Positions 9,501 to 49,971 of a DNA stretch of 64,000 nucleotides are shown here, piece by piece. Positions within the stretch are counted from its first letter, which is position 1. The number at the start of each line of letters is the position of its first letter. Under the pieces are notes generated by a model. The model had not been told where the DNA came from and did not search any database. It was given only the letters and a program-made list of their open reading frames with translations. Origin of the DNA: Isoetes taiwanensis (taxonomy: Eukaryota > Streptophyta > Lycopodiopsida > Isoetales > Isoetaceae); the NCBI GenBank assembly GCA_021234155.1, contig JAJEKV010000097.1:2866477-2930476 (forward strand), in the 5' to 3' direction. The position numbers and the translations under genes were made by a program.

Positions 9501-10095
9501 TGTTTGGGGTCTGGGTTCGGGAACTCCTGCAAGACAGCCCTCTGTGAGGACCCTTGGATCTAACAGGAGAATCCGGGGGACTATGTCACGCGGGATTTGC
9601 AAGAAAAGAACAAGAAGAAGAAAACAGAACAGAAGAGAACAATGAGAGGAAAATGATAAGCTTCCTTGATATCAATGATGAACATACATGAGCTCTCGCA
9701 ATCGAGAGAAGACTGAAGAGAGACAAGACTCAAAACTCATCTAAAAACTCATGTGCTAGCTCTACTCATATATATAGTACAATGGCCTTTGGCCCAATAT
9801 AGACACTCTGACTGATCTCGGTGCCGACTCCTGGAAGGAGGCCTGATTTGCAGGAATGCTGGCGGTGCCTCTTGAAATGCCTAGAATCACGCTGATGCTG
9901 ACGCGGGCAGTGACGGGCCGTCACTTGTCTGAGCGGCGCCTCTTGTGGACGGACGCAGGCTTTGACTGCGTGGTCTGCTGCTTGGTCTTCTGCTGAGCCT
10001 TTGATGGCTGACCCGTGGCTGACTGTGGATCCTTGTTCTTGACCTGGTCCGTCGTATGCATGAATAGTCCTGTACCAGGAGGCACAGGACTAACA
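9501..10095 (-). repeat. Element A 3' LTR
   Basis: 595 bp, starting TGTTTGGGGTC and ending GGACTAACA as read on the + strand. Its partner is at 20020-20614. A TATA-like CTATATATATGAG lies on the - strand near 9769-9781. The promoter-proximal (U3) half is coding: the extra ORF of the element runs into it and stops at 9921. Confidence 0.9.
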
Positions 10096-13000
10096 CTCCC
10101 CCCCACCAAACGACACTCAGGGTGAAGAAAAGGAGGAAGTGTTTCTGAAGGCGGGAAGCCATCAGTCTGAAAGTGATCCTCACGGGAGTGAGGACGGGCA
10201 CCATTATGGTACTTGCCAATGAGATCCTGGCGTGTTTGTAGAGCAGGAGGAGTGTTGAGGCCAAGGGCAGGATCTGCATCAATGAGAAAACGAGATCGCA
10301 CCATGTCTTCAAGGGCAGCATGGGCGTCTGAAGAAACAAACTGACATTCCATGAGTAGGCAGGTCTGGAGGCCGAAGGCACTGACACTGGCATTCGGATT
10401 GCAGTGAAAAATGGGACGCTGCCGATTTAAGGAGCTGAGCAAGATGCATTTGAGAGCAGCACAAAAACCTGCTTGAAGATGGACTGAAGGATCTGGTGAG
10501 GTGGCGGCATTCTGCAAGAAGGTGTCAAGACCATGAAGCGCATCAGCAGGGCGTTGCCAACCACGCTCATTAGCAATATAGATCCAATTCATGGTGTTAT
10601 CAAGAGTGGCACCCTCCTCCCAATTGGAGCGGCGAACAAAACGGGGATCCCACCGAGATCCAGCCGAGATCGAGGTGGAGTCCATCCAAAGATGGCCATC
10701 CATGACCTTGGTCCAAAATGGGCGACGCCAATCAGAGGTAAGGAACCTGGGGCGTGGAGGAACACCTAGGGAAGCATAGGGAGAGGGAACCATGCCCGTG
10801 GGCGTGGGTTCTTGAGCACGCTCCCTCACCAGCGACAAGGGCGGATCAAGGGCTTGGCACCAACGATCCCGCATGCAGGCGAGAGAGAGTTGAGAGTTGG
10901 ACAGAGGGCTATCCCCAGCCGTGGGGACCGCTTGCTATCCGAAGAGCACGTAATTGATTGTACCCGGCGAGGTGTTGCATGTAAACTTGTGCATATGGAA
11001 GATCCTCGGGATGTCCCAGATACTTCCTTATTTGTTGCAGCACTTCCGCTTGCCAGAGAGGCAAATGATGAGCAAGCTCAGGCATGTACTCTTGATGAAG
11101 AGCGTGGGTCTGAGCATGATCAGCGAGATAGGGGTTGTTATCCTGAAGCAACCATTGAAGAGTGGGGTCACCACGAAAGTTACAATAAGTGGCCCATCCC
11201 CAAATCTCTTCCGTATCACCCGGATAGAAATCATGAAAAATGTAAGCCATGGGCTGAACAATTCTGAAAGTGATGAAGTCCGGATCGTCATGATGAATGA
11301 GATCAAAGACCAAAAGGGCACAAAGATAAACCTTTGTCTTCAATTGAGAGTTACGGCCAGATCCGAAGAAAATCTCTGCGAAGGCGCAGTGAACATCCAC
11401 GGGACCATCAGCCCCATGCCACTTGAAGGAAGAAGAGGTGGCGGCAACCACATAATCTAGATAGCGAGGAAGGAACCGGGAAATCAACGAGCGGTGATTA
11501 ACGATGGCAATATAGCCGCCAAGTTTGGTGCAGGCCTCATCCCCAGACCCGAATAAGCGTCTTTGTGCTTGTTGTTCAAGGTCCGCGGATCACGTGGTCC
11601 TTTTCTAACGAAGGCGTGGCCGGGTCACGGACCCGTTCGAAAGTGTGGACTGTGAGGTGGATTGCCCAGAGCATTGAGTCGAAGCCGCGGCAATCTCCGC
11701 ATCATCAAAATTTTCTGTTTCGAACCTCCGTAAGTGATCTTGGAGATGTGAGCTGAAGTTTCGCGTGGAGAGCCGAGCCGTCGGAGAGGCAATTTGAGCG
11801 TCCACGCTTCGGTAAGGTTTTGAACTTGAGTCTTGTAATTGTCACAAAGCTCACGAGTACAAAGGCGTCAAGCTTGGCAATATCTTTCTCTTTGTCACTT
11901 TCGAGAGTATCTTTGGACTTGTTTTGCTCCAATAAGTCCTGAATTTGGGATTGGAGTTGAGCTTTCTTGACCGTAAGTAGGCTGGTCCGATCCCCGCGCA
12001 CTTTTGAGATCTATACGGGCCCGTAAGAGAGCTCGCGTGCTTGTCTTGAAGTTGGGCCTCAAAGTTTGAACTTGTGCGAAGGCAGCTTGAAGGTCACGGT
12101 GAACCGCTTCGAGGCCTCTAGGGCCGTTTGAACCCCATTCATAAGAGCTTCTTGGGATTCTTGTAACTTTAGAACGGCGGCTTGAGCATCCCCGGCGATC
12201 TTTTGATACAACAAAATTGACGAGGGTGCTTTGGGTGGTGGAGCCCTTCTTTGTTGCCCAGTTTCGCGATGTTTGTGAGACATGGTGTGAACCGGAATGC
12301 TTGGATTCTCAGCGGAGGAGGAGGAAAGTGACATGGGAGTGCGAATTTTGACATGACCCGGAGGAAGAAGGGCGTGAAGTGCCGACTTGGTGAGTCCGAG
12401 GGAAGGGACCGCTGAGTGGAATCATGAGAATTAGGAGGTGTGGGAGGAAAGTAATGACGGATAATGGCTTGAAGGTGGCCTCCCACGGATACTTCCGAGA
12501 AATAGAAGTGGCGGCCCAAGATGGTCCACTTCTTGGAGAAGACGGTAGAAACGGCAATTGGGGCCAATCAATATGTTGGTTGGAGTGCGTAAGCAGTGAG
12601 CACAATATTATAGAAAGGCTTATTGATATGGGTGTTCTTGATAGAATACCCAAGGAACTTGCGCCACAGAAACTTAACAAAAGTTTCATGGGGTTTGTCT
12701 ATATTGGTCGAGCGATGCACATTGGCGTGATAAGGAGGTGCACCAAACTCGGTGACATCTAGATCCCGTATGGCGGACCAAGATAAACAAGGGGGTTGCA
12801 AAGGAATATGGAATACCTCTGAAATCGGTGTTGAGTCAAAGAAAATGGTGGTGCCATCGACCACCGTGGTGTATCCATGCGGTCGTTGGCGATGTTAGTG
12901 ATGAACCGCTTCAACCGGGTCGTGATTTGGAGCCTAAGTTCCATTTGAGAGAATTCGTAAGTTTCACGCGCTCGCGACTTCACGATTCGGGCCAACAAGG

Positions 13001-16218: not shown

Positions 16219-18208
16219 CTATAGCGAGAAGTCATCTTGAAAAATTTGTAAGAAGGGATTTTCCTTCATAAAATCATGAAAAACTGAGAGCATGATGCGT
16301 TGAAACGTGGATGGAGAGTTTGACAAGCCAAAAGGAACCACCTTGTAGGCAAAAGTGCCCCACGGGGTGGTGAAAGTAGTCTTGAGTTGATCAGATTCTT
16401 TGATTGAGATCCGATTGTAGCGGAAAAAACCATCCATGAAGGAGTACATCTCATGTCCGGCGACCTCTTCGAACACAGTGCGTGAAGGAAGTGGAAAATG
16501 ATCACGCTCCGGTGGCACGATTGAGTTTTTTAGTCGTCCCGCAAAGCGGATCTTACCATTGTGTTAGAGTGCAATGGCGATGGGGCTCACCCATTCGAAT
16601 GTTTGACCTCATAGATCAAACTGCGGCAAGGAGTTTGTCAATTTCGCCTTGGCGATCCGCGGTAGTGGGGTTGAGCCGGTACTGTCGTTGCTAGACTGGA
16701 CGTGCATCAGACTTGGTAGGAATGGTGAGTTCCCCCAAGGTTTTGTTGATCCCCCGAAGATCTCTGTAGCTCCAGGCGAAAATGTGTTTGAACTTTTTGA
16801 AGAGCGTGACGGCCCTGTTACGATAGGGTGTCGGAAGATTTGCAGCAATGCGACACCAGTGATTGTTGCCGGCGTCCACAATCTCGACCGGGGAGTCTGA
16901 ATATGGGGGATAACTTAGGTGTCTGGACAATATGAGCGGGGAGGTTGAAGCATAACGGGGATCGCGTGGCACTCTGCGTGGTGAAAAAGAGAGGTTCTTT
17001 GAAGTTTCATCAAGCAGAGGTTGCTTCATGACAGCGTGTACATCTACAGGAGCGGCAGGAGGTTCAGCATCTGAAAAGTGATCAACACGTTGGATTCGAT
17101 TGCAAGGAGCCAGGTAAGGGTCAAGCAAAGCAGCCACAGCCTGGTCCTGATCAAGAGTCATTTCTCCCCAAGGATCAGCATATTCGGGGTAGGATGACAG
17201 AGGCAGACTCGCAGGTGGAGCCTGAACTTGATAGATATTCTGGGCTTCCTCAGAATCAGTGTCAGAGAGAGAGGGTTCAGCATTATCGACCGAAATGATC
17301 TTACCAGTTTCCAAGTCCATGGTGGCATTAAGGTGACCATCGGTGATGACTAACTGATCCGTGGCCCAGTAATGGATACTCTTGGCTTGGCGGAGAAAAG
17401 GTCTGCCGACCAACATTTCATAATCACCTGGATCTTCTCCAGCCTTCCAAACACCAAATTCCAAGGGGAATCTGAGATCACCAATGTTGATGTGAAGAAG
17501 AGGCGTGACGCCTTGAGGTCTCGTGATATGGCCATTGGCCAATTTGATGTCATATGGGGCACGATAGAGTTGTGTGATGCCCATTTGTTTGCGGAGTTTA
17601 TCCGTGATGAGATTAACGGCGCTACCTCCGTCAATTTGAACATGGTTGACTTGCTGACTACCCACCGTGGCATGGACCGTGGGTGTAGAGGTAGCAACAG
17701 CCCCAACCAAAACAGTCGGGAGTGGTAACTGGTCCTTGAGAGCAGGACAGAGTTTCAAAATTGTGGCCAAACTTAAGGGAATTTTGATTTTTGCCAGCTC
17801 CTCTTGGAGTTCCAGAGGCACATGAGAAAAAGGATCTGCTGGATCAACAGGTGCGGGAGTGCGTGGTAAAGAAGCAGCAACTTCTTTGAGTAGGTCAACC
17901 TCTGCAGCGATATTTGGATATGTCTGAGAGCGTGGAGGTTGAGACGTGGAAGGTGCTTCTTGTCTTTGTTGAGCTCTAGTGGTGGCATGAACATTAGCCA
18001 ACGTGCGGCCTTCAGCAGCTTGCATGAGGTTCAAAATGCTTTGGCGAACTTTAGGCATAACATGCGGCATGAGTTTCTCCAAGTCAGGTGCAAAGTGAAC
18101 CTTTTTTTCTGCTTCATGAGGAATGGTGTCGGCAAAAAGGCAGGTTCGCGTGCCATTAGGAATAATGGTTAAGGGGCGTGTATACAGTCCAGCGTGAAAC
18201 CAAACCAA
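16219..18208 (-). pseudogene. Element A protease and reverse transcriptase
   Basis: The 18208-16691 frame holds a gag-pol linker (VHFAPDLEKLMPHVMPKVRQ), then an aspartic protease with NHVQIDGGSAVNLITDKLRK and YEMLVGRPFLRQ. The D-G-G form in place of D-S/T-G is usual for Tat/Athila. The RT follows in other frames: EMYSFMDGFFRYNRISIKES, FTTPWGTFAYKVVPFGLSNS, and the catalytic block FLQIFQDDFSL at 16219-16255. The Met usually found before DD is Gln here. Lesions near 16550-16700 split PR from RT. Confidence 0.85.
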
Positions 18209-18233
18209 CCCAATTTGATGGCGGACTGGAGGA

Positions 18234-19969
18234 TTAAGAGCCCGAAAAATTTCTTCCCCGCTTGTTGATCCATCCGAGGTTGATTGGCAGGAGCCGGGTT
18301 GATAGCGTGGATCTGGCGCTGCGCGGTGGCTTCAAGAACAGGGGCGGGCCTTGTTTGCCATTAGCAATCGAGTTGGTAGGTTTGTGAGGCGCACCGATGT
18401 GGTCCGATTTGTGCCGTGAAGCCTGCACCTGAACTTGTGGAAGTTGAGGACACGCCGTGGTGGTATGACCCCATTCGCGTTGCGATAACACCGAGCTTTG
18501 AAGGATCAAAAGGAGGACGTGTGTTGGGTCCCCGTTGTTGCTCCCATTCGGCGATAGAGTTGATTGGGTTGCGCCTGCGGTGGTGGTCAGCGATATTGCG
18601 ATTGGTGCTGAGGTGTGGTTTGCACTTGATAAACCATCTTGTTGCGGAAAGGTGTAGGATGGGTGCGAGTGCACTCTTCCGTGGCATGATTGCACATGTT
18701 GCATCTTTTACAATGAGGCGGGCCATTGGTGGAGTTGCACTCATTCGCCAAGTGGCCTTGATATTTGCAGATATGGCACCAGATCTGACTGCGCTGCGGA
18801 TTGGCGTGTTGAGGTTGAACAGCAGTCTGGGGAACCATGACGGGTGGAATGAAAGGGAGCTCCTGAAGAGCCACGCCACGGGAGGAAACATTGACTGAGT
18901 GATTGACAAGATCGATAGCCTGCTCCAAAGTCTTCGGGCGCAGGTATTCAGTCATGAGTCGGATAGCTGGAGGAAGTCCTTGGAGAAACCAGACCAAGAT
19001 CTGGCTCTGTGTGGGGTACTCCTTGAGTTTGCTGAGCAGAATGTGAAGTCGATCTGCAAAATCCCTGGCAGACTCCGTGGGCTCTTGTTGAAGGTCATTG
19101 AGTTGCTTGAGATGAAGTTGATCATCATCCGTGGTCCCATAGTGAGAAAGAAAAGCAGTTCTCATTTCCGACCAATCTTGTTTCCAGTGGCTTTTGTTGG
19201 ACATGAGCCATTGATGAGGGGAGCCACGCAGTGTGGTGGAAAAGATGTGGAATTTCAGTTGAGGTTGCGCATGACCATTCAGGACAGCCAGAGCCTCAAA
19301 TTCTTCCATGTGGGCCTGAGCACTTTGGTCTAAAGGTTTGCCTTTCGTGTTGCCAAAGGTAGGATAAGTCAGCTTAAGGGTCTGAAAGGTAGAGGTAAAA
19401 GTGCTGGGCTGGACAGGAACATGATAGTGAGGATATTGAGGTGGAGTTGGAGGTGGTATGGTGCTGGAAAGACCCTGCTGAAGGGGTGGCTGAGGTGGAG
19501 GTACGGGAGGTGCCTGATCATTGGTTTTGAGGTCTGTAAGATTGTAAACAGGAAGGGCGGTGGGAAAGGTAGGGAAGGGAAATTCCTGGGGAGGAGCAAA
19601 AGAGACATGTGGATATCCCTGTCCACCCGTAGGAGATGATGGTTGTGAAGGCAGAGGCGTATGGCCAGAAGACTGATGGATGAAGGCATGTTCTGGGGTA
19701 TGAAAGTAAGGTTGAGCAGGTTGAGCCGGATAGGGCTCCTGATAGTGATGAGGAGACTGAGGCTGTGAGCAATGTTTGCACGCTTGAGGCGGAGAATTTG
19801 GACGTGACATGACACGAGGGGTGGGTGGCGCCGGACCGAGCCCTAGACCCATCGTGTGGCCTCCTCAATGTCATAAGGATCCATACATGTCACGAACAGC
19901 TTCCCGATGATGGCGCCCAAGCGAGACGCCGTCTGGGGGAAGAAGTTCTTCCGGGCGAAGTTTCGGCAT
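18234..19969 (-). pseudogene. Element A gag
   Basis: Capsid/nucleocapsid polyprotein. By comparison with element B the start is the ATG at 19969 (MPKLRPEELL). A frameshift near 19860 leads into the main frame (19852-18587). That frame has a Pro/Gln/His-rich region, the Retrotrans_gag core (TYPTFGNTKGKPLDQSAQAH, ALAVLNGHAQPQLKFHIFS, GSPHQWLMSNKSHWK) and two CCHC zinc knuckles (CHICKYQGHLANEC and CKRCNMCNHATEEC). A third knuckle, intact in element B, has lost its cysteines here (REWGHTTTACPQ remains near 18475). Confidence 0.85.
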
Positions 19970-35559: not shown

Positions 35560-37141
35560 CAGGACGTCCCCTACTCCGCCTTATAACCGCCCGCATCGCA
35601 CTTCGGAGGAGCATTCCCCGCAAATGCCTGACAGGGCCATCCACCACTCCACTCCCATGGGGCGAGCCGGCAAGGGAAGAGTGGATGTTCATTCATCCGC
35701 CTTCCATCGGATCGACCTATATCTGGAAGCGTAACAAACAAACGTGAGCACAACTAATAATATACAACACAATCACCATAACAATAGCAACATCACAGAA
35801 GTCGGCAATACCTTCATAACAATAATACAAAGGAGGGTCCTACCCGGGGTTCGACTCTCAAGGGGATGACCGACGGCTAGGCCTCGAGTTCATTGCAGGC
35901 AGTTCATGGCAATGGATTTGGCTGGCATAGAACATGGCTTAGGGTAGTCCACTCCATCCGCCCCTCCGGTGCACACTTTGCGAATAGGCTGAAAAGTGTT
36001 GGGACTTGGCCGTAACTCATGGGTGAGTAGCGGAGGGGCTACTACTTTGGGTTGCATCTCCCCAACCCCGATGAGGCGGGAAGAGAGCTGCCTCTCCTCC
36101 GAGGGTATCCATGCTCATCGCTTGGCGGCTAGAGGGCCACTGCCCTTATTCGACTTGAACTCACTTTGGAAGGTCATATCCACCACCCCACAGTGTCGAG
36201 CTCATGCCTTGCCCACATGGCAGGGCAAGCCATTAAGCCTAGCCAGCAAAGACCCCCCGATAGGCTTTACTACCGGAGGGTCAGTCCAGCGATGAGACAA
36301 GTTCCTCCTTATCAACCGCCTTGCCCCTTCACCCACGGCCGGTGGGCTCATTGCCGCGGGCGCATTTATGTGGGAACTAAGGTGCTATGCTAGGAGCATC
36401 TTCTACACAGCCTTTAGGTCTCTACCCCCTTCCCACAACAAGGAGATCCGCGAGTAGAATACATACAATATCACGTAAGCGTAGATAGAGAATCATATCA
36501 ATCTACCTACTTAACATCCAATGTTAGGTTCATTCGTTAGAGTCTCGGATCTAGGGATCTACAAGGCTTCGAGAGATGATCTAACATACTAACCGGCATA
36601 TTGCCATGCCTAAAGACGGTTTTGCTTTTGCACAAACAACTAGATACCTGCTCCTTGGCTTGCTCCCGATCCTTGGAAGGCGTCCATGCTCCTGATCTTG
36701 CGAAGGCAGCTGCTACTCGGCAACTTTGTTGTGCAAATCCGACTTTTTTTGAACTGGCAATGCGATTCGAAACCTTACCTTGGCCGAATTGGCCCAGGAA
36801 AGCCCTAAATGCGAAAGAGGAAAGGAAGCTCTAGAAAACCCTAATTGGCAAAGTGAAAGGAGAGCTAGGGTCTAGGGTTTTAGCCCTTATATAGACCCTA
36901 TCTAGGTTAGGGCATCCACATGGGCAAATGGCTTTAAGCCATTTGGAAATGGATGAACAAGGAACCTTTTGTTGTGTATGTTTAATTACATACCCAACAT
37001 CCAAGGTTGCCCCCTAGGTGCAACCTTTAGCTCCTAGGTGCAACGTTGTCCTACTCTCAAGTACATGTCACTTGTGACATGTACGTGTGACGTGGCAGTA
37101 TAATATACGTATTAGGGCGTATATTATGCTGGAACGTCACA
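35560..37141 (-). repeat. Chromovirus 3' LTR
   Basis: About 1.58 kb, paired with 47429-49023. On the - strand it starts TGTGACGTTCCAGC and contains TCTATATAAGGGC (TATA, 36886-36897). Sequence before the TATA includes GGTGCAAC repeats; sequence after it includes CCCTAGACCCTAG. Differences from the 5' LTR are mainly small indels at CG-rich sites. Confidence 0.93.
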
Positions 37142-37154
37142 TTCTCCCCACCTT
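37142..37154 (-). other. Chromovirus polypurine tract
   Basis: AAGGTGGGGAGAA on the - strand directly precedes TGTGACG of the 3' LTR. A second copy of AAGGTGGGGAGA lies about 45 bp upstream (37184-37195), so the tract is duplicated. Confidence 0.85.
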
Positions 37155-37157
37155 GAC

Positions 37158-38060
37158 TTGATGCTGTCCTCAGCATCACGCGTCTCCCCACCTTGGGTAC
37201 CTGCATATCCTGCAATTACAACACTTACATATCCATATTATATTAATCACCTCAAGTAATATTTATAGTTTACTGTAATTGTACTATGGTGAGAGGCTCT
37301 TCCGTCCTCTACTTCATTATCGACTATTACAATATTAACGTCAATTATAGCTTTAAGGTTTTAACTAAAAAAAACTTCCCGTCGCCTCCTCACAACACAT
37401 TATGGCAAAATTATGCGTTGTGAGTTCTTGTAGCGCTACCCTCCTGCCGCTCGGTCCTTCTAGTTGCCTGCAGGATGTACGCTACGTTAGTATATATTTA
37501 ATTATTATTATAAGGGTTGGTTGTAAGGGAACCACCCATTAATTACAATTATATGGATGCAAGGCATATCTCTTCGGCATAGGAAGATTATGTTTCTCCC
37601 ATCCTGGCCGAAAAGATAGCGCCTATATGCCTATATGCCGCTCATGCCTACACCTCTAGTTGCCCAGCGTGGAGGATATCCTTCCCGTATATGGGGCGTG
37701 AAGGATAGATTCCTCCTATCAAAGCATATATGGGGCTAAAGGTGCTTTTCCTATCAATGCATCTCTCAATGACCTCCTTTCTCTCGAGGTCGTCTACTTA
37801 GTGGGGGACGGAGTAGACTTCTAATCTACCTTCCACTCAAACAAAAGCGGAAGCGCGGTCATGCCTACATTGACATTACACCACGCCCTAGAGAGCACCG
37901 TAGTGGTCTCATCATCGGTAACAACGCATGCAACCCATGCCTAGCATAGGCTGCATCGCGTGGATTAGCCTTAGCTACACATGCTTAAATGCAAACCCAA
38001 ATCGACATGCACGAGCCGATTTCTTGGTTGCTGATGTCGACTACTTCGCGTGACGAAATG
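37158..38060. other. Chromovirus 3' non-coding region
   Basis: About 0.9 kb between the chromodomain and the PPT. No sustained reading frame or recognised motif. Confidence 0.5.
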
Positions 38061-38089
38061 ACCCTTGCTTTGCTCCATAAAGTCGGGTC

Positions 38090-38246
38090 TTGTTTCTTAA
38101 GATCTGACTCAAGTACCCGCGTGGCGTCTTCCAATTGTAAGTGCTTCCACTTCACAAGGTATTGGAGGAATTTTGACCTTCTTGTCTTCTTATAAGATCT
38201 ATTAAGAAGGACTTAGGAGCGATTTCAATATGCTCGTCCGTCATTT
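38090..38246 (-). pseudogene. Chromodomain of the chromovirus integrase
   Basis: Past the TAG at 38247 a shifted frame reads KKTRRSKFLQYLVKWKHLQL, then EDATRVLESDLKKQ. This is the core of a chromodomain: the Y-LVKWK strand, the acidic EDAT turn and the C-terminal helix. Chromodomains bind methylated lysine in the H3 tail and steer chromovirus integration to heterochromatin. The Trp usually following EDAT is Arg here, so one aromatic-cage residue may be lost. The domain is joined to integrase only across a stop and a frameshift, which may be decay or sequence error. Confidence 0.8.
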
Positions 38247-39366
38247 CTAAAAACTCATTTGTCTCCATATTTCCTCGGGGTTTGGGGTGTGCCTCTTTAG
38301 CAAACTTACGTGGAAAACCTTATGTATCTTGAGATGTCTTGGCAAGTCCAACTTGTAGGATTGGTTACCTACTCTCTTCTCTATTACGAAGGGTCCAGCC
38401 CATCTTGGAGCAAGCTTCTTGCAATTGCCGATCGCGAGCTTGGCCTGCTTGACTTTGATCTTCAACCACACTTTGTCTCCCACTTCAAATTCTCTTACCG
38501 TCCTATGCTTGTCGGCGATGCTTTTCTGCTTTTTTCTTCTTCTTTGCAAGGAGATATCCTCTCACTTCCTCCACCAAGTCTTGCATTTCCGAAAGCATCT
38601 GCTGGGAGACTTCCACCTTGGACACAGGGTTGTGCCAAGTATCTGGGGTAAGACACTGATACCCGTAATTAATCATAAAAGGACTCATCTGCGATGACTC
38701 CTGCTTGGTGCTGTTGTAGGCAAACTCTACTAGGTAGATGAAATCATCCCACTTGGATTGCTTGTTCCATACATAGCTTCTTAACATATCTTCGATGATC
38801 CTGTTGGTCCTCTCCGTCTGACCATCTGTTTGGGGATGATATGCCGTGCTCATCAAAGCTTAAATGCGGATGGTGGTGAATAGGTCCTGCCAAAAGGCAC
38901 TCATAAACTTGGAGTCTCTATCCGAGATTATCTCCCTTGGCATGCCATGGAGCCTAAAAATCTCCTTAACAAATAGGTTGGCTGTGTCTAATGCCGTATC
39001 TGTTGTCCTGCACGGCACAAAGTGTGCCATCTTTGACAACTTATCTACTACCACCATCAAGGCATCTTTGCCCCTTGCTGTTCTTGGGAGTCCTGTAATA
39101 AAATCCATACTTATCACCTCCCACTTAGCATTTGGCACGGGCAATGGTTCCAAGGCACCTGGGATCCGGAGCTGTTCCGCCTTTGTCTGCTGGCATATCT
39201 GGCACTCCCTAATATATCTTGCTATTTCCTTCTTCATGCCGGGCCAATAATAACTGCTTCTAATCTTGAAATATGTCTTCATGAACCCTGCATGCCCTGC
39301 TATGGGACTATTGTGTGTATCATTCAAAATAAGCTTTCTAACTTGCGAAGATTTTGGTACACACAA
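38247..39366 (-). pseudogene. Chromovirus integrase
   Basis: The 39366-38860 frame has the HHCC zinc site (HNSPIAGHAGFMKTYFKIRS, then ECQICQQTKAE) and the core start (WEVISMDFITGLPRTARGKD, with the catalytic Asp, then GMPREIISDRDSKFMSAFWQ with the second). The 38856-38503 frame continues with MSTAYHPQTDGQTERTNRII, carrying the third catalytic residue (Glu in QTERTNR), and 38549-38247 has the GPF/SH3-like domain (EVGDKVWLKIKV, LAPRWAGPFVIEKRVGNQSY). All catalytic residues are present; two frame changes interrupt it. Confidence 0.92.
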
Positions 39367-39985
39367 TTTGTTTTATAATATAGCAAGTTCCTTCCTTCTT
39401 ATAGTGCCTGAACATCTCCCTTTCCTTGTCGGTCCTGGCCTCTTTGGAAAGGCTCGCCCAAACTTCCTTGAAGTCGAGGTCCGTCGGCAATGCTTCCTCA
39501 ATCTTCTTGCCAAAGTCACTTACAAGTGTTGATATGGCGTTACAATGAATTCTGGTTGCCAAGGGCTTCCTGGAAAGGGCGTCCGCAACCACATTGAGCT
39601 TCCCTGGCTTATAACTTATCTCAAAGTCATATTCTTCCAAGAATTCCATCCATCTCCTTTGCCTCAAATTAAGGAGCGGCTGCGTAAATATATATTGGAG
39701 GCTTTGATGATCTGTGTCTAAGCTGGAATTTTCTTCCCAATAAATAATGCCTCCAAATTCTTAAAGCCCTTACTATAGCCGGGAGCTCCCCGATCATGCG
39801 TTGGGTAGCGCTTTGCTTTCGGCGTCGTTCAACTTCTTGGAATCATAGGCTACTACTCTTTCCTCTGCATGAGGAGGACGCTGTGTCGCTATCCTGCTAG
39901 CATCTGTTGCTACAAGCTTATCTTTGGTCGGATCTGGCAAGACCAATCTTGGCGCCGTCGTCAAAGCTTCCTTTAAGCGTCTCAA
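39338..39985 (-). pseudogene. Chromovirus RNase H
   Basis: The 39985-39794 frame reads LPDPTKDKLVATDASRIATQ and VVAYDSKKLNDAESKALPNA; the 39667-39338 frame continues with [20 protein letters not shown] and [12 protein letters not shown], the usual end of Ty3 RNase H. The catalytic Asp of ATDAS is present. Lesions near 39700-39790 split it. Confidence 0.88.
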
Positions 39986-40172: not shown

Positions 40173-41067
40173 CTATCTTCGCGGGTGCAGCGTGGAAATG
40201 CCTTCCTGCTGTGATCCGTGCCCCAAGTACTCCACTCTTTCCGTTCTTGGTGGCGCCCGATAACCCATAAAGAGTTGATGCCTTCTTAACTTTTCAAGCA
40301 CCTTCCTCAAGTGTTGGGCGTGCTCCTCCACAGACTTGCTGTAAACCAAGATATCGTCGAAGAAGACTATGATGAAGGAATCCAGAAATTCGCGGAAGAC
40401 GTCGTTCATTAATCTCATGAATGTTGCTGGTGCATTAGACAATCCAAAGGGCATAACTGTGAACTCATAGTGCCCATATCTTGTCTGAGCAATTTGTCTT
40501 ATGAATGTCTTCCTCCTTGATCCTAATCTGGTGATATCACGATCGAGATCTATTTTGGAGAAGATCTTTGCTCCTGCAGGCCCGATCCATTAAGTCATCT
40601 GACCTAGGCAAGGCATACTTATTTTTGATGGTGTGCTTATTTAACTGGCGGTAATCAATGCACATCCTAAGGCTACCATCCTTCTTCTTCACAAAGAGAA
40701 TAGGGGCTCCGAACGGGGAGACACTAGGTCTTATGAACCCTAGGTCTAGCAATTCTTGCAACTGCTTCTTTAACTCTGTCAACTCCTCGGTTGACATCCT
40801 ATAAGGTGCCTTGCTTGTAGGCTTCGTCCCAGGTTCAAGTGCTATTTCACACTCGACTCCTCTATAGGGCGGAAGCTGCTTAATCTCATCAGGGAACAAG
40901 TCGTGAAATTCCTCGATCAACTTTGCTATTGGCCTCGGAAGCTTGCTAGATTCTTTGATCTCTTTATTTCTCTCCGGCTCCTGATCTTGGAGCTCAAGCT
41001 TAAGGAGATAGGCCACCTGCTGCTTTCTTATGCACTTAAGCAATTTTTCGCTACTCATGCATTGCAT
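40173..41067 (-). pseudogene. Chromovirus reverse transcriptase
   Basis: The 41067-40537 frame covers fingers and early palm: [60 protein letters not shown] and [20 protein letters not shown]. The 40454-40173 frame has MPFGLSNAPATFMRLMNDVF and the catalytic block FIIVFFDDILVYSKSVEEHA. FFDD replaces the more common YxDD, as is normal in plant chromoviruses. A lesion near 40455-40540 separates the frames. Confidence 0.93.
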
Positions 41068-41589: not shown

Positions 41590-42846
41590 CAGTTGTTGGT
41601 CCTATGCCACAGGCTGGAAGCATCTGGCTCACAACTGCTTCTCTATACATTCTGCTTCTTTTCCTTGGGAATGGACTGCGCGAAATTGCCTCACCGCTTG
41701 GGAGTAGTTAGACTTGGCTCCTTGCTCCTTGAAGCTTACCTGTTTCTTTTCACCTTGCCACTACTTGTGTTGCCTTGCTTCCCATAATTTGAATTGTCTT
41801 TGCGTCTTGCTAGCTCTTTGGGCTTGCCGCCTTGGGCTATAGCCCCCCAATGCTCTTCCCTTATCACGGAAATCTTGCTGCCTTGAAGCCTGCTCTTGTG
41901 GACTGTTCCTTGCAAACTTATGGCCTTTGCTACGCCTCGACCTGGACTTGGGTTTATTGCCCTTACAAGCTTGCGGATCTCATCGTTCAAGCCTTCAATA
42001 TAGCCTTCCACCGCATGCTTTTCACTCAACTTTGGCACATAAAGCCTTAGTCTCATGAATTCCTCCGTGTATTTACGGACTGATTTGTTGCCTTGTTGCG
42101 ACCTATAGAACTGCTGCATCATGTTGCACTTATGTTCTCTCGGTACATAATGATGTTTGAATGCCTTGGCGAACTTTACGAACTTGCAAGCTGTCCTGCT
42201 CCTCGGCCCCATGTGCTTTGGCATACCCCTTCCACCAAATTCTGGCTGCACCCTTGAGGTTTCTTTGTTGCTACCACCCCTTTGTCTTTATCTTTCATGC
42301 CATAGGCGTTGCCATACTCACTCATCTCATCCAGCCATGCCTCTGCTTCCATTCGGATCTGTTTTCCCTTGAAAACTGCTCTAACTACGGCTTTCCACAC
42401 ATTACTAAGGGCGGAGTCGACTTTCTTCTGGTAGTCCGTCTGTGATCTGTCCCTGACACGGTTTGGATCCTGCCGGGGACCTCGTGCCTCTTCTTCCAGC
42501 TCTTCCGATGCCGAGTCTGTATCCGAGCTGGAGCTTGAGGATCCCGAGCTAGGAGATCTTCTCCTTCTGCTTCTCTTCGCCGTTTGCCTTTGTTCGGCCC
42601 GGTGGCGTTTCCGGCAAAGGGGACATTCTCGGTCTGTCCTCCCTCTTTGCTTTGCCCCGCTAGCAATGCCCTTATGTCGTGGATGTCAGACCTGATTTGG
42701 GATAGCTCCTCCTCCGGTGTTACCGCATCGAATTCTGGGCGCAAATTCCTCGGCTGGAAGCGCCTTGGTGGGGTACGTCCTTGTTCTCGCTGCCTGTGTT
42801 CATCAAGGTTTCTAGGTACTCTAGCTGCATGCACATTAGAGTACAT
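41590..42846 (-). pseudogene. Chromovirus gag
   Basis: The 42846-42385 frame gives the N terminus (MYSNVHAARVPRNLDEHRQR, then FDAVTPEEELSQIRSDIHDI). Overlapping frames give the capsid core: EAEAWLDEMSEYGNAYGMKD (42400-42176) and FKHHYVPREHKCNMMQQFYR, NKSVRKYTEEFMRLRLYVPK, AVEGYIEGLNDEIRKLVR (42251-41736), the Retrotrans_gag domain. A single CCHC-type knuckle near 41595-41640 can be made out (H-RTNN-C end) but is frameshifted. At least three lesions. Confidence 0.85.
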
Positions 42847-43497
42847 TCTGATTATTAGTTCTTGTTTTGTGTGTTACGTTGTTTTACTTGTTTATACAAT
42901 TTGAGGGAGCAATTATATACAAAAAGAGATATATATTATATTCATATATAATAAGCTTTTACATGCAAATTTATAAACTTTTACTCTTCAAACTTCTTGA
43001 GGTAATCAGGGTGGTCCTCCAAAAATTTCTTCACTTGGGCGTTACCTAATGATCTGTTAAGTTCTGAGGATATTTGTTGGCGTTCCTCCTTGAATCTTGC
43101 CTCCATGTCTTGAATTCTCCTATCCGATGTATCTTTTCACGCAGGTTATTTTTATTTGTATAAACATACACTTTTTGATTTTATGTACTTTGCATATACC
43201 TTTTCGCCAATTTGGGTGATTTGTGTAATATAGCCACATGTACCAAAAGGGATACATTTATAGCCCCTTTCATGCTTTTACCTCATATAAGGGATGGCGA
43301 AGTCGAAGATGGTCAATGCAATCGCTCTCTTGATCGGGGACAACATGGTCGATATTTGGAGGTAATCGTGCATGGTGTCCAAACCACGAGAGGCGATAAG
43401 CATAAAGACCCCCTTCTTCACCCCTTGGGCTAAATTGGCGGTGAATAACCGCTATTCTTCCGATCCGTGAGCAGCGGCGGGTAGTATCGGCGCCTTA
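42847..43497. other. Spacer between unknown ORF and gag
   Basis: AT-rich, no sustained frame on the - strand. It may serve as the gag leader. Confidence 0.4.
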
Positions 43498-44565
43498 TCA
43501 TGCCTGTTTCTTCTTGGGGCGAGGAAGTTGCCACATTGCCTTCCCGAAGTCATCCACTTTGGTATCTCCTCTAGCTCTCACGAAGTCTTGGTGCACCAGC
43601 CTCCTTAGGTTGATCTTGCCTCCATCTTTGCCGGGGATGGGTGTTGGCGAGCTTCGGTAATAATCTTGATGTGGACTTGCCTTTGATGCCCATTTGTTCT
43701 GAATTGCCATGAACTCCTCCTCCTCGAGGGGCAATTCCGTTTCGGCCATCATCATGCGATGCTGCGTAAGCCTCTATATCGATGATGTCTCGCGGTGAAG
43801 GTCTTGGCTTCTCTTATGCTGATAGGGAAGTCACGGGCTTCTCGATCGATGAAGTCGTCGAGATACACTTTCTTTGTCGTAGAAGGTGTAAAATCTCATC
43901 CACCCTAAGGCCTGCCGGCGACAACATGGAAGATTCTTGATGTCGTGAAGGGTTAGATATGCCTCGCCTGCTATGAACACCGGTGTCAAGCTTGTAATGC
44001 CCTGCCCGAGTGGTGGGGCTCTTCTTGTTGCTCGCAGTCCCTCTTCGAAGCTTTGGATCTGCTGTTCTGCTTGCTGCCTCTCCTGTTCTAGATCCAAGTC
44101 TTCTGGGTCTGATTCGTATTCATCCTCCTCCTCTTCTTCTTGCTCGTACTCGAGTCGCATCCGTTCCTCCTCTGCTGCGGCCATGGCTATGGGTTCAACT
44201 TCTAAAGGCTGCACTGAGGGTTCCCCTATCTGGGTTTGACCCCGAAGAGATAGAAAGATGGCTACAGCTGCTGTATAGGAGAAGTACCTCCTCCTATTGA
44301 CAGAGATGGACATATAGTTGGGAAGGCGGACTGCTTTATTCTCTAAGTACTTATCTACATTTGGGATATCTTGCAGGGCTGACTTGAGGGCAGTGTTAGG
44401 TGCAAAATACCCTACACAAGGTGGGAGTTCTACCAGAAAGGGTCCTATCTTGGCATGGAACTCAGACATGATGTTCTGGTAGAAGGGAGTGGCGTTGATG
44501 GTGGCCTCAATGTCGAGTTCCCTTCGGAAGACACTGAAGACAGATTCGATGTCGACTTCACCCAT
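43498..44565 (-). pseudogene. Unknown accessory ORF with acidic stretch (chromovirus)
   Basis: The second extra gene, between the H3-like gene and gag. I choose MGEVDIESVFSVFRRELDIE at 44565 as the start because it follows a non-coding-looking stretch; the frame itself is open from 44712. The first part (FVELPP-type residues, YLENKAVRLPNYMSISVNRR, YFSYTAAVAIFLSLRGQTQ) looks globular. A strongly acidic run (EQEEEEEDEYESDPEDLDLE) and a Gln/Glu helix follow, then ITSLTPVFIAGEAYLTLHDI. After a frameshift near 43870 a second frame continues (VYLDDFIDREARDFPISIRE), and a third ends at 43498 in PRPKKKQA. It is probably one protein of about 350 residues. No family recognised. The acidic run could bind basic proteins such as histones (inference). 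Confidence 0.6.
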
Positions 44566-44891
44566 GGTGAGTTGTGTATTTGTACCATCGCTTGAATGAA
44601 GAAGTGGCCATGAGCAATCGAGGAGCTGGGGATGACGACGGATCTGACGCCCTAAGGATCGGGGAAATCGGCTTGGAGCGCCGAGAGCGAGGTTGGAAGG
44701 CGCAAATGACACTTGGGTTCCCCTTTATAGGCAAAACCCTAATTTTGGGAAAATTTTAGGTTTACAATTCTCTGACTTTCTGAGGTCTAGAGGTATGATT
44801 TATAGGCTAACTGAGCTTGGAAATGCTCCTAAGGGTCCCTAAGCAATGATTTTGGTTCGTCTAAGGACAACTTGGATCAATTCGGACGAGA

Positions 44892-44964
44892 CCACTCACA
44901 CAGTGCGCCAGGGTGGGATCGGTTTGCAAACCGAACTGGTTGGGGCGCACTCTGTGAGGGGTGG
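44892..44964. repeat. 73 bp compound palindrome, copy 1
   Basis: Arms CCACTCACACAGTGCGCC and GGCGCACTCTGTGAGGGGTGG pair with a 3 bp bulge and one mismatch. The centre holds the perfect palindrome CGGTTTGCAAACCG. It lies between the acidic ORF and the H3-like gene. Confidence 0.95.
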
Positions 44965-45096
44965 GCTGCTGTTTAGGTCACTAATGATGCTAAACTAGAG
45001 AACTAAAGACATAATCCTGGATATCTCATCGAGATAGATAGGATTGAGCCTTTACTCGCCTTATTTGGGCAAGTTGTGGTGGAGTTTGGGGTTCGA

Positions 45097-45169
45097 CCAC
45101 TCACACAGTGCGCCTGGGCGGAATCGGATTCCAAACCGAATGGGTCTGGGCGCACTCTGTGAGGGGTGG
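45097..45169. repeat. 73 bp compound palindrome, copy 2
   Basis: Same length and arms as copy 1, starting 205 bp after it. The central palindrome is imperfect (CGGATTCCAAACCG). Confidence 0.95.
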
Positions 45170-45300
45170 AGCTCCATTTGACTCGGCGTTGGCCAATTTG
45201 GACAGATTAGGGGTCAATTCCTACTAACTGGGATGAGTTAGGTCGAATAATATACCTACTTTCTGCATTTAGGCAAGATTTGGCACCAAACCATGCTCAA

Positions 45301-45373
45301 CCACTCACACAGTGCGCCAGGGTGGGATCGGTTTGCAAACCGAATGGGTCGGGGCGCACTCTGTGAGGGGTGG
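45301..45373. repeat. 73 bp compound palindrome, copy 3
   Basis: Starts 204 bp after copy 2 and has the perfect centre CGGTTTGCAAACCG. It lies 140 bp beyond the end of the H3-like gene. Confidence 0.95.
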
Positions 45374-45513: not shown

Positions 45514-46705
45514 TCAGGGGCCCTCCTTCTTAATAAACTGAGCTAGTCTAATATCCTTGGGCATGCAAGTCACTCTCTTAGCGTGTTGAGCACACGCAAC
45601 AGAGTCTTCGAAGTAGTGTACAATGTCTTTGCTCAGGCGCCTCTGCGGTCACGAGCAACATGTCGTCCGTGACCCGTTTGGATGGGTCGAACTCCTGCAA
45701 AATCTCCCTCGTTAAACGTGCAAAAGGGGCTCTGGGAATGAGGAAGCCATAGCTCTGCTGGAAGTGTTTAATTTCTTGGGCCGCCCTTGCGAATTTTGAG
45801 TCTGCCGGTCTTTTCATCGGCTTCTTCGGAGGGGTTGGCAGTTCCGGTGGCCGCTTCAACGTGTTCTTCTTCGTCGGCCGACCTCCCTCAATGGTCTTCA
45901 CTCTGTGTTCTTCGTAATATTTGGAGTATTCTTCGTGCATTTTCATGTACGCAGTATACTCCTTTAGCTCCTTCCGGTACTGCAAGTCCCTCTTCAGCGC
46001 ATAGGACTCCCTCTGCGGCCTTGGTTTCTTGGTGCTGTCGCTGGGGTGCTTCGGCGACGGCCATTTAGGATAGGGCGGTGCATTAGCCACAGGGTCTTCA
46101 TCCTCCGGTATTGGATTCGAAGGGCCCGAAGTCTCTCCTGGCTCGTGTCCTCCCGCTCCCTCCTCAGGTTCGGAGTCGGACGAAGATGGGGGCTTCTCGG
46201 GATCCGGCTCCTGTATAGTTACTGCCGCGGCCGGTGTCTTCTTCTTCTTCGGCTTCTCCGCCGGCACTTCCGGGTCCTTACCCTTCTCTGCTCTCACCCT
46301 CTCCCGCTCCTCTTTGCGCTTCCTCCTTTCTTCCCTCTTCTGTTTCTTCTCCTCCCTCCTCTTTCTGCGCTCTTCCTTTTCCTTCCGCCGCTCCGCCTTA
46401 GATTTCTTCGGCTCGCCTTCTTCTCTTTCCCTCTTCTTCTTCTTCGGTTCCTGCTCTGGTTCTTCATTATCCCCGAAGATCTCACTCAGCAGCTCCCTCC
46501 GCAGCTCCGCCGCCGCGTCCGCCTCCCAGTCGAGGTGCTCCGATACCTGTTCCTGCTCTTCGGGGTTAGGGTTAGGTTCAACCGGTGCCTCCTCTTCCCC
46601 GATGTGCACCTGCCTCCGTCTGGCCTTCTGTCGGACGGCTCGCTCCTGGGCGCTCACATAACCAGGTGGCATAACCTTGCGGGCAGTCTGTTTCGTCCGT
46701 GCCAT
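45514..46705 (-). CDS. Histone H3-like protein encoded by the chromovirus
   Basis: The ATG at 46705 starts [10 protein letters not shown]. After Met removal the first nine residues are exactly those of histone H3, with K4 and K9 in place; Ser10 is Val. A charged linker follows (about residues 30-300): acidic/Pro patches, then a long E/K/R-rich helix ([20 protein letters not shown] onward), likely nuclear-targeting, and a Pro/Ser region. From about residue 303 there is an H3 fold: [56 protein letters not shown]. One extra base (A run at 45628-45630) shifts the frame, which otherwise stops at about 375 residues. The next frame reads [36 protein letters not shown] and a stop at 45514. Helix and loop lengths equal canonical H3 from alpha-N to the last residue, about 396 residues in all. 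The frameshift may be decay or a homopolymer error. Confidence 0.92.
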
Positions 46706-46927
46706 GCTTTTGTTTGTCGGGTTTCGAGCTTTGGCGCCTGAAGATCGTCTTCTTGGGCGAGCTGTTCTCCGGGAAAGGTGGGGGTAAAATGGAAACCCTA
46801 ATTTTCTATTTATAGGGAGGTGGGATTTAGGGTTGGGACCTGCAATTCATATGGGGAAAAAAAAAAACTAGGGCATTAGCGAAGGTACGAGGCATTCATC
46901 TGGGTTCACCATACTCCAAAACACCCA

Positions 46928-46999
46928 CCACTCACACAGTGCGCCTGGGCCAGATTGGATTACCAACCGAATGGTGCTGGGCGCACTCTGTGAGGGGTC
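46928..46999. repeat. 73 bp compound palindrome, copy 4
   Basis: It lies upstream of the H3-like gene, between it and the PBS. The arms are conserved; the centre is diverged (TTGGATTACCAACCGAA). The length is 72 bp. Confidence 0.93.
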
Positions 47000-47141
47000 G
47001 ACTGTTCCCGGGGCTATTTTACAATTTACAGGGAGGTTCTTAGTGTTATAACATACAAACCTATCTAGAACTAAGGGAATAAGCCAAACTACACCAATAT
47101 CTTAATTAATTGGGACACCTAACTAGGTCAACGGAGGTCAA

Positions 47142-47214
47142 CCACTCACACAGTGCGCCTGGGCGGAATCGGTTTGCGAACCGAATGGTGCTGGGCGCAC
47201 TCTGTGAGGGGTGG
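47142..47214. repeat. 73 bp compound palindrome, copy 5
   Basis: Starts 214 bp from copy 4, with centre CGGTTTGCGAACCG. It is the copy nearest the primer-binding site (47409-47428), so copies 4 and 5 would be in the leader of the genomic RNA. Confidence 0.95.
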
Positions 47215-47408: not shown

Positions 47409-47428
47409 GATCATGCTCTGATACTGCT
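47409..47428 (-). other. Chromovirus primer-binding site
   Basis: Immediately inside the 5' LTR the - strand reads AGCAGTATCAGAGCATGATC. The core TATCAGAGC matches the tRNA-iMet primer site (TGGTATCAGAGC). The first bases differ. Confidence 0.8.
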
Positions 47429-49023
47429 TGTGGCGTCCCCTACTCCTTATCGATGCCGCATCGTTACTCGAAGGAGGAGCATTCCCCACAGCGGCTGCGG
47501 CGGGGGCCATCCACTACTCCTCCACTCCCATGGGGGCAGAGCCCGCAAAGGGAAGAGTGGATGTGTCATTCATCCGTCTTCCATCGGATCGACCTATCTG
47601 CGGGCGTAACAAACAAACGTGAGCACAACTAATAATATACAACACAATCACCATAACAATAGCAACATCACAGAGTCGGCAATACCTTCATAACAATAAT
47701 ACAAAGGAGGATCCTACCGGGGTTCGAGACTCAAGGGGATGACCCGGCGGCTAGGCCTCCGAGTTCATTGCGAGGCGAGTTCATGGCAATGGATTTGGCT
47801 GGCATAGAACATGGCTTAGGGTAGTCCACTCCATCCGCCCCTCCCGGTGCACACTTTGCGAATAGGCTGAAAAGTGTTGGGACTTCAACCGTAGCTGCCG
47901 GGTGAGTAGCCCGAGGGGCTACTACTGTTGGGTTGCATCTCCCCAACCCCGATGAAGAGGCAGGGAAGAGAGCTGCCTCTCCTCCGGAGGTATCCATGCT
48001 CATCGCCAGTGGCGCTAGAGGGCCACTTGCCCTTATTCGACTTGAACTCACCGGAAGGTCATATCCACCACCCCACGAGTGTCGAGCTCATGCCTTGCCC
48101 ACACGCGGTGGCAAGCCATTAAGCCTAGCCACAAAGACCCCCGATAGGCTTTACTACCGGAGGGGTCAGTCCAGCGATGAGACAAGTTCCTCCTTATCAA
48201 CCCGGCCTTGCCCCTTCACCCACACCGGGTGGGCTCACGTGCCGCGGGCGCATTTATGTGGGAACTAAGGTGCTATGCTAGGAGCATCTTCTACCACACC
48301 CTTTAGGTCTCTACCCCCTTCCCACAACAAGGAGATCCGCAGTAGAATACATACAATATCCGCGAGCAGAGATAGAGAATCATATCAATCTACCTACTTA
48401 ACATCCAATGTTAGGTTCATTCGTTAGAGTCTCGGATCTAGGGATCTACAAGGCTTCGAGAGATGATCTAACATACTAACCCGCATATTGCCATGCCTAA
48501 AGACGGTTTTGCACTGTGAGAACAACTAGATACCTGCTCCTTGGCTTGCTCCCCGATCCTTGGAAGGCGTCCATGCTCCTGATCTTGCGAAGGCAATTTG
48601 CTACTCGAACTTTGTTGTGCAAATCCGACTTTTGAACTGGCAATGCGATTTGAGCCTTACCTTGGCGAATTGGCTCGGGAAAGCCCTAAATGCGAAAAAG
48701 AAAAAGGAAGCTCTAGAAAACCCTAATTGGCAAAGTGAAAGGAGAGCTAGGGTCTAGGGTTTTAGCCCTTATATAGACCCTATCTAGGTTAGGGCATCCA
48801 CATGGGCAAATGGCTTTAAGCCATTTGGAAATGGATGAACAAGGAACCTTTTGTTGTGTATGTTTAATTACATACCCAACATCCAAGGTTGCCCCCTAGG
48901 TGCAACCTTTAGCTCCTAGGTGCAACGTTGTCCTACTCTCAAGTACATGTCACTTGTGACATGTACGTGTGACGTGGCAGTATAATATACGTATTAGGGC
49001 GTATATTATGCTGGAACGTCACA
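47429..49023 (-). repeat. Chromovirus 5' LTR with promoter
   Basis: About 1.59 kb, TGTGACGT...ACGCCACA on the - strand. A TATA box (TCTATATAAGGGC, 48767-48779) with GGTGCAAC repeats upstream is the likely promoter for the H3-like gene and the genomic RNA. The region downstream of the TATA contains CCCTAGACCCTAGCTC. Confidence 0.93.
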
Positions 49024-49971
49024 TTTACTGATAAGAATGTGAAGACGGTCGGCGAAATCACGTGCAGACTCCGTGGGTTGCTGTTGAAGATCATTGAGTT
49101 GCTTGAGCAGGAGTTGATCATCATCCGTGGTGCCATAGTGAGAAAGGAAGGCGGTTTTCATTTCTTGCCAATTTTGCTTCCAGTGGCTTTTGTTGGCCAT
49201 GAGCCATTGATGAGGGGCGCCTCTTAATGTGGTAGAGAAAATATGAAACTTGAGTTGAGGTTGCGCATGACCATTTAGTATGGCCAAGGCCTCAAATTCT
49301 TCCATATGAGCTTGAGCACTCTGATCCAGAGGTTTGCCTTTAGTGTTGCCAAAAGTTGGATAAGTCAGCTTCAAATTGTGAGAAGGAGACGAAGGTGGAA
49401 CTGGCGCATAGACAGGTGGAGCAGCCATGTGCTGAGAGTACGGCGGTGGTGGAACAGAAAAATCCGGAGGGGCAGAAAAGGTAGCATCCGGTGAGGAAGG
49501 ACCCTGAGACCCTGCCTCATTGGGTTTGAGATCTGTGAGTTGTTAAACAGGGAGAGCATGATGAAAAGACGGTGAAGATTGAAATTCCTGGACTTGGGGA
49601 GGACCAAAGGAAACTTGAGGGTAGCCCATCCCAGTTGGAGGTGAAGAAGGTTGTGACGGTAGAGGGGTGTGGCCTGAAGGTATATGAATATAGGTGCTTT
49701 CAGGAGTCTGGAAATAGTGAGGCGTGGGCTGAACAGGCGTGTGATGGGGCGACTGAGGTTGAGAACAATGCCGACACACAGGGGGAGACCCAGGCCGAGA
49801 ATGAGCACGAGGAGTAGGAGGTGCCGACTGAGCTCTGGAGTGGACACGACCACCCTCAATGTCATAGGTAGCGTCATACATATCCCGAACAGCCTCGCGT
49901 CGTTGATGGCGCTCCAAATGAGCCGCCGTTTGGCAAAGAAGTTCTTCAGGAGTGAAACCACGAGCCGACAT
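49024..49971 (-). pseudogene. Element B gag, N-terminal part
   Basis: Starts at the ATG at 49971 (MSARGFTPEELLCQTAAHLE). It continues with a Pro/His/Gln-rich region (CSQPQSPHHTPVQPTPHYFQ) and, in the 49428 frame, the capsid core (LKLTYPTFGNTKGKPLDQSA, HGAPHQWLMANKSHWKQ-type block, TESARDFADRLHILIS). It stops where the chromovirus LTR begins and resumes at 35559. A lesion near 49545 changes frame. Confidence 0.88.

Follow-up and report, generated by a model that had tools for sequence, protein, structure and literature searches.

A histone H3-like gene carried by a chromovirus and kept under purifying selection in Isoetes taiwanensis

The locus and its carrier element

The window, a 64,000-nucleotide stretch of Isoetes taiwanensis DNA, holds a 13-kb chromovirus that is nested in another Ty3 element and carries a gene for a chimeric histone H3-like protein (the H3-chimera gene). 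The coding and terminal features of the carrier are listed here from the 5′ to the 3′ end of the element.

47473–49025 (−), 5′ LTR (match limits; the true end is near 47430)
47415–47424 (−), PBS-like site GTATCAGAGC, adjoining the 5′ LTR (sequence)
45580–46705 (−), H3-chimera gene, first frame (open reading frame; PF00125, E = 3.2e-7; paralogues)
46676–46705 (−), codons 1–10 of the H3-chimera gene, equal to H3 residues 1–9 after the initiator Met (by comparison with the host H3 start)
45632–45847 (−), first part of the H3 fold (Pfam profile positions 20–88)
45514–45633 (−), second frame, with the remaining H3 fold (PF00125, E = 9.4e-7, profile positions 91–118)
42984–44565 (−), ORF2, a protein of about 505 residues, interrupted in the window copy (tblastn)
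41904–42451 (−), gag capsid region (tblastn; PF03732 and PF19259 in copy L018)
40191–40716 (−), reverse transcriptase region (tblastn; PF00078 in copy L018)
38860–39372 (−), integrase zinc-binding and core domains (PF17921, E = 9.1e-22; PF00665, E = 7.4e-8)
37988–38212 (−), chromodomain at the end of the integrase (PF00385, E = 9e-6; E = 7.7e-11 in copy L025)
35605–37143 (−), 3′ LTR (match limits)

The two LTRs are about 1.55 kb each and 93.1% identical, and the PBS-like site, which we take to be linked to initiator tRNA-Met, recurs as TGGTATCAGAGC in five of the six relatives aligned. Domains of gag, protease, reverse transcriptase and RNase H follow one another in order in the related copy L018, which was scanned for them, and the carrier is classed by its domain content as a chromovirus, that is, a Ty3 LTR retrotransposon. 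No hAT domain was found among the proteins scanned; the element is bounded by LTRs and encodes a Ty3 pol. Because both flanks of the element (35522 and 49025) match neighbouring positions of one related gag-pol stretch, at about 16691–19864 in the window, the chromovirus is placed within the gag region of the other Ty3 element. No target-site duplication was recognised at the LTR ends of the window copy. A first-pass annotation of this DNA had placed the H3 gene between the two LTRs, after the primer site and before gag; the position is correct, but ORF2, which lies between the H3 gene and gag, had been missed. Elsewhere in the window, two long overlapping open frames occupy 9921–11589 (−), and the one that was scanned (9924–10934) has no Pfam match.

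In the broken window copy, the first frame encodes 375 residues comprising an N-terminal H3 tail, a charged linker and the start of the fold. Because the gene is broken, its two frames were searched separately, and the PF00125 ranges that they match (20–88, then 91–118) are collinear. When the first frame was compared with PDB sequences using phmmer, all of the best 60 matches were H3 chains or H3 variants (top E = 7.5e-6). The Pfam and phmmer matches rule out a chance resemblance to H3 and bear out the earlier reading of 46705–45514 (−) as an H3-like start with a C-terminal H3 fold. The N-terminal start of the window copy is shared by 11 of the 16 intact copies described below.

The single extra base that had been noticed within the fold is a real change of frame. 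The stretch between two motifs of the fold measures 91 nt in the window copy, 91 nt in copy L013 and 88 nt in copy L009, compared with a frame-keeping 90 nt in the other 13 of the 16 copies measured; a frame-changing length is thus confined to three of these, and intact, unsplit copies exist. The window copy (45514–45660) and L013 are identical in length across the changed stretch, and both may descend from an already broken copy that was moved in trans, or the site may be prone to slippage.

The tail is not joined straight to the fold as it is in canonical H3. Instead, residues 1–9 (in 11 of the 16 intact copies) are followed by 260–290 foreign residues. A linker of about 290 residues, as proposed at first, is right if counted to alpha-N, but the foreign insert may be closer to 260 residues and may sit inside the H3 tail, because the PDB alignment of an intact copy begins at query residue 274 and H3 residue 11–12, in a weak part of that alignment. 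The linker is both acidic and basic.

Copies across the genome and selection on the gene

The genome that was searched is that of the window itself (1,658,258,908 bases, or 1.66 Gb, in 1110 contigs). A search with the window protein scored 109 of 48,133 candidates, and one with the distant copy L036 scored 107 of 28,523. Pooled, the matches listed represent at least 185 distinct loci of what we call family A, where starts less than 1.5 kb apart were counted as one locus. Besides the window copy, 32 copies were read, 20 as 10-kb stretches and 12 as gene stretches, and these were mostly copies with high scores or few stops. At least 16 of the 33 copies (window included) have one intact frame that runs from the ATG through the whole fold and encodes 385–421 residues, which is a minimum because L030/L031 and L038/L039 are each split in two stretches and L042 is partial. 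An H3-profile search, proposed at first for the C-terminal part of the window protein, matches PF00125 there and also in all 16 intact copies; in a phmmer comparison, the intact copy L011 matches H3 with E = 1.1e-21.

By tblastn on the window copy and the 20 copies read as 10-kb stretches, 16 of the 21 have H3, ORF2, gag and reverse transcriptase in that order on one strand. Taken singly, H3, which served as the query, is present in 21 of these copies, ORF2 in 20, gag in 19 and reverse transcriptase in 17. Copy L024 has H3, gag and reverse transcriptase, with ORF2 only as an opposite-strand fragment and none between; L017 and L021 have no reverse transcriptase within the stretch, L025 has H3 alone, and L027 has H3 and ORF2 alone. 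Both kinds of relative that the first-pass annotation had proposed to look for, other gene-bearing copies and copies free of the frameshift, are therefore present in this genome.

A similar picture emerges from ORF2. Among 84 listed ORF2 loci (from 85 scored, with one on C1097 and second matches of the same copies left out), 20 are preceded on their own strand by one of the listed H3 loci, at a median gap of 1013 nt, and none has an H3 gene in the wrong order or on the wrong strand within 6 kb. Among the matches listed, a family A H3 gene lies within 4.5 kb of none of the 24 ORF2 matches at 60–63% identity, versus 21 of the 60 others; one 97% copy, which does have such an H3 gene nearby, is not counted in the former group. 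In the 60–63% group, the H3 gene is either too diverged to be listed or absent, and this observation counts in part against a captured H3 that the element keeps. Fifteen of these 24 ORF2 copies have no internal stop (for example, G000:C1026:14333504-14335024).

ORF2 is intact in copies L014 (3903–5414, −) and L022. Its protein has no Pfam or NCBIfam match, and a structure model with a mean pLDDT of 41 is too poor for use. A homologue of 501 residues, P0004, is 45% identical over 99% of the query and comes from a 2007-base contig of source lgn. This sequence may be from another species or from another subfamily of the same one; whichever its source, the ORF2 gene occurs with an open frame in independent data. 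No ORF2 match was found in viral contigs. For the H3-chimera protein, a protein database search in which 8000 candidates were scored gave three hits (best E = 3.5e-6, 33–35% identity), which span 17–18% of the query and each have histone-fold domains, and a search with the fold region gave 35 candidates, none significant.

A second, high-copy family of H3 fusions (family B) was found by searching the genome with PF00125, which scored 150 loci of 8705 candidates. Profile coverage of the first 15 matches starts at position 2, and all 12 of those that were read proved to be host H3 genes. Open frames of more than 400 residues are common among the remaining 135 loci, and the four of these that were read (L055–L058) consist of an N-terminal domain of unassigned kind, a polar middle and a C-terminal H3 fold, and do not have an ARTKQT start. 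Their fold is 85–88% identical to host H3, with synonymous sites saturated and dN values of 0.10–0.14. A genome search with L057 scored 92 of 11,964 candidates; no listed ORF2 lies within 15 kb of the first 40 matches, and ORF2 gives no homology signal with the family B N-terminal domain. Family B, which is tail-less and has the more conserved fold, points to the fold as the common need of both families.

The dispersal of family B would also suit a scattered host family of H3 variants that mobile elements carry or have landed beside. For family A, this explanation is refuted by the ordered position of the gene before ORF2, gag and reverse transcriptase, by the upstream, same-strand placement seen from ORF2, and by the location of the window copy inside an element that is itself nested in another. 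We consider it very improbable overall.

Selection was assessed by the Nei–Gojobori method on the 16 intact copies, from whose 120 pairs the 66 without a defined dS in the fold were dropped. For the 15 far pairs, in which fold dS is 0.5 or more, mean dN divided by mean dS gives 0.03 in codons 1–10, 0.14 in codons 1–31, 0.16 in the linker and 0.06 in the fold. The corresponding values are 0.00, 0.16, 0.15 and 0.07 for 35 middle pairs, and 0.00, 0.09, 0.23 and 0.13 for 4 close pairs. A wider set of 26 copies has a fold ratio of 0.057 (154 of 325 pairs usable), with a largest single value of 0.43. Pairs in which neither copy belongs to the intact set, drawn from ten copies that are broken, altered or partly read, give 0.060 (21 of 45 pairs usable), although the search motif for folds is itself biased towards conserved ones. 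This equal ratio argues against a bias from choosing intact copies. Low dN/dS values in both the intact and the wider sets indicate that the gene is maintained by selection, and this purifying selection is strongest on the fold and acts on the linker too. The earlier suggestion of a captured H3 whose tail and fold are under selection is thereby supported, with fold ratios of 0.06–0.13 by distance class and 0.06 in the wider set.

Provided that the codon analysis holds, these values also rule out a passenger or pseudogene, that is, a trapped host H3 sequence copied along without function. Such a fate has a counterpart in the H3-like copies of fungal hAT elements, which are mostly truncated and inactivated (PMC6710886). 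In family A, the fold ratio is 0.06 where dS approaches or exceeds 1, subfamilies retain the tail along with the fold, and at least 16 copies are intact. The probability that we would give to passive carriage is close to nil.

Conserved residues, control signals and a proposed role

The fold aligns with residues 49–133 of host H3 without gaps and at 49–53% identity in all 16 intact copies. Every one of these keeps F67, R69, L70, E73, R83, L92, Q93, E94, A95, E97 and F104, as well as D106, C110, H113, A114, K115, R116, D123, L126 and I130. Within this set, R69, R83, C110, H113, A114, K115, R116, D123, L126 and I130 are positions that we take to face H4, the second H3 or chaperones in H3. Other positions have changed, including R63 to P (15 of 16), L65 to A (16 of 16), K79 to D (16 of 16), R129 to F or Y (16 of 16) and R49 to Q (10 of 16), and in H3 several of these lie at or next to the nucleosomal DNA. 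Because several DNA-side residues are changed, entry of the protein into ordinary nucleosomes is doubtful and may be poor.

An AlphaFold model places helices in H3 order, although at a mean pLDDT of 58 and a pTM of 0.26 it is weak, and Foldseek ranks H3 chains first for this model with a poor superposition (rmsd of about 12). Derivation from CENH3 is unsupported, as the best 60 PDB matches in both phmmer searches are all H3 or H3 variants; the fold has no extra residues, that is, no longer loop 1 of the CENH3 type. An H3.3-type origin, considered because of L90, was dropped because both host H3 forms that were read have L90.

Among the 30 tails found, K4 is present in all 30, TKQT in 27 and K9 in 20, where the search pattern itself favours the first codons, K4 included. 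Tails without K9 are those of L013 and L029, which are frame-damaged there, and those of L027 and L032 to L038 as read. The constant feature of the tail is therefore the TKQT end, and the K9 site is not.

Signals that could control expression lie on both sides of the H3-chimera gene.

47133–47214 (−), 73-nt palindromic unit with flanking nucleotides, upstream of the H3 gene
46919–47000 (−), 73-nt palindromic unit with flanking nucleotides, upstream of the H3 gene
46806–46817 (−), TATA box CCCTATAAATAG, 112 nt before the H3 ATG (sequence)
45292–45373 (−), 73-nt palindromic unit with flanking nucleotides, between the H3 gene and ORF2
45088–45169 (−), 73-nt palindromic unit with flanking nucleotides, between the H3 gene and ORF2
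44883–44964 (−), 73-nt palindromic unit with flanking nucleotides, between the H3 gene and ORF2
44720–44732 (−), TATA-like GCCTATAAAGGGG, upstream of ORF2 (sequence; same context in other copies)

In 17 of 19 copies, a TATA box of the form CCCTATAAATAG or CCTATAAGTAG stands 106–129 nt ahead of the H3 ATG, and conservation between subfamilies in its vicinity peaks at 0.95 from −140 to −120 and is moderate elsewhere. In other copies, the ORF2 ATG is preceded, at a distance of about 119 nt, by a second TATA with the context AGGGTTTTGCCTATAA. The first TATAA hit falls at this place in 10 of the 15 copies with an ORF2 anchor, lies farther upstream in 4, which this count does not settle, and is absent in 1; the window copy, whose ORF2 anchor was not detected by this count, is outside the 15. 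Shortly after the H3 stop, AATAAA or TGTAAAT is present in 11 of 12 copies.

The palindromes, two before the H3 gene and three between it and ORF2, are imperfect and are mostly spaced 202–214 nt apart. Left arms of all five occur in 14 of 21 copies, every copy has at least two, and 84 of the 86 units with both arms are 73 nt long. For 67 distinct units, the mean folding energy is −35 kcal/mol, with a z value of about −5 relative to simple shuffles. The arms have no match in 12 host H3 loci, which argues against an origin of the palindromes from a host promoter. We read the TATA boxes, palindromes and 3′ signals as putative control regions of two separate genes.

The data establish that the gene exists, where it lies in the element, that it is present in many copies and under purifying selection, and which residues it has kept and lost. 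Its product is an H3-like protein with a free ARTKQT end, and is predicted from these residues to bind H4 and chaperones. We propose that an H3 gene was captured by the chromovirus in the distant past and has since been retained as a functional accessory gene that acts through an H4/H3K4 route, and we regard this proposal as evenly poised between right and wrong. In such a pathway, the protein would be made from its own promoter, enter the nucleus and pair with host H4 through the host H3–H4 chaperone route. It would then sit on or near the DNA of the element, where host factors directed at the H3K4 end would bind or modify its free ARTKQT end. As an outcome, silencing of the element or of its integrating DNA would be reduced and a more active state favoured.

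The same features could instead serve a protein made in excess that soaks up H3 chaperones, H4, and the enzymes and readers of H3 modification, so that silencing would be weakened everywhere and not specifically on element DNA. The retained chaperone-facing and H4-facing residues beside several changed DNA-side residues, the long charged linker, the TKQT motif in most tails and the promoter-like signals would all suit such a decoy, and this explanation stays alive because loss of DNA-side residues makes nucleosome entry doubtful. K9 of H3 is the site of heterochromatin methylation, yet it is missing from 10 of the 30 tails (two of them frame-damaged) while K4 is kept. Since K9 has been lost in several subfamilies, acting as a decoy for H3K9 enzymes is not the general function of the protein. 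We judge the decoy explanation unlikely, but weighty enough to keep in view.

Alternatively, fold and linker might be part of the particle, packaging nucleic acid or tethering the pre-integration complex to chromatin together with the integrase chromodomain. The H3 gene shares its sense strand with ORF2 and gag, its product has a charged linker, and the integrase chromodomain is present, all of which would fit. However, the acidic as well as basic composition of the linker is not simply that of a nucleic-acid-binding segment, only one of the three cage positions is retained in the chromodomain of L025 by comparison with HP1, and the separate promoter-like signals speak against a Gag-like role. 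A particle component is, in our estimation, improbable.

Returning to the accessory-gene proposal, a broader suggestion is that mobile elements have built H3 into their own proteins in two architectures, certainly a retrotransposon in the case of family A and conditionally in that of family B, should the latter be mobile, that they maintain it under strong selection, and that this private variant of H3 marks or assembles the elements' own chromatin. We offer this more tentatively and consider it somewhat doubtful. If it is true, family A carries a detached H3K4-end flag with its own promoter alongside the ORF2 protein, and the chromatin concerned would be element-encoded rather than element-targeted.

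Comparison with known systems and significance

Among the open-access full texts listed by our literature search, there was no report of a histone-encoding LTR retrotransposon. Plant chromoviruses, including the centromeric CRM elements, encode Gag, protease, reverse transcriptase, RNase H, integrase and a chromodomain, and CRM elements associate with host CENH3 chromatin. We know of no CRM element or other chromovirus that encodes a histone, and in the PDB ranking the protein described here falls nearer to H3 than to CENH3.

The nearest parallels among mobile elements are H3-like genes in hAT DNA transposons of fungi, namely H3L of Pyrenophora tritici-repentis (PMC3538342) and the copies of Pseudocercospora fijiensis (PMC6710886). 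A mobile element has captured and multiplied an H3 coding sequence there as it has here. Those carriers are DNA transposons, whereas the present one is an LTR retrotransposon with a long insert within H3 and strong purifying selection, in which LTRs and a Ty3 pol stand in place of a hAT transposase and terminal inverted repeats. Truncation affects 90% of the H3-like copies in P. fijiensis, where 11 of 784 are near full length, and the copies are damaged by RIP (PMC6710886).

Single H3 genes are also carried by DNA viruses, including clam xenomavirus, Dishui Lake phycodnavirus and others (PMC9145170). These resemble the present case in that a selfish genome holds one H3-like protein with a conserved fold that is thought to work with host histones. 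Some of the viral proteins have an extended or changed N-terminal tail, whereas here the first residues are kept and the extension follows them. Viral folds are given as 73–87% identical to H3 (PMC9145170), compared with 49–53% for family A and 85–88% for family B.

Plant LTR elements with additional open reading frames (aORFs) have likewise gained an extra conserved protein domain, such as the AlkB demethylase of orchid Ty3 elements (PMC9289625). Within the consulted text of the same source, a screen of 121 angiosperm genomes names nine of 15 extra domains, with no core histone among them. In the part of an aORF review that we used, the word 'histone' is absent and most aORFs are placed between pol and the 3′ LTR (PMC7264820), unlike the two genes described here, which lie between the PBS and gag. 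LTR elements with captured host genes are thus already known, and it is the histone cargo that is unusual.

Modification of histone H3 is the main means by which hosts silence retrotransposons, and an H3-like protein made by the element itself would be a direct counter-move to such silencing. It would open to experiment the question of whether the nucleosomes of a mobile element can be supplied or marked by the element itself. The protein is also a naturally occurring H3 whose end of the tail, linker and fold have become separated and are maintained by selection, and it offers a test bed for the role of each part. Family B hints that H3 fusion may not be a one-off in this lineage. The conservation of an altered H3 suggests that the element uses a captured piece of the host chromatin machinery.
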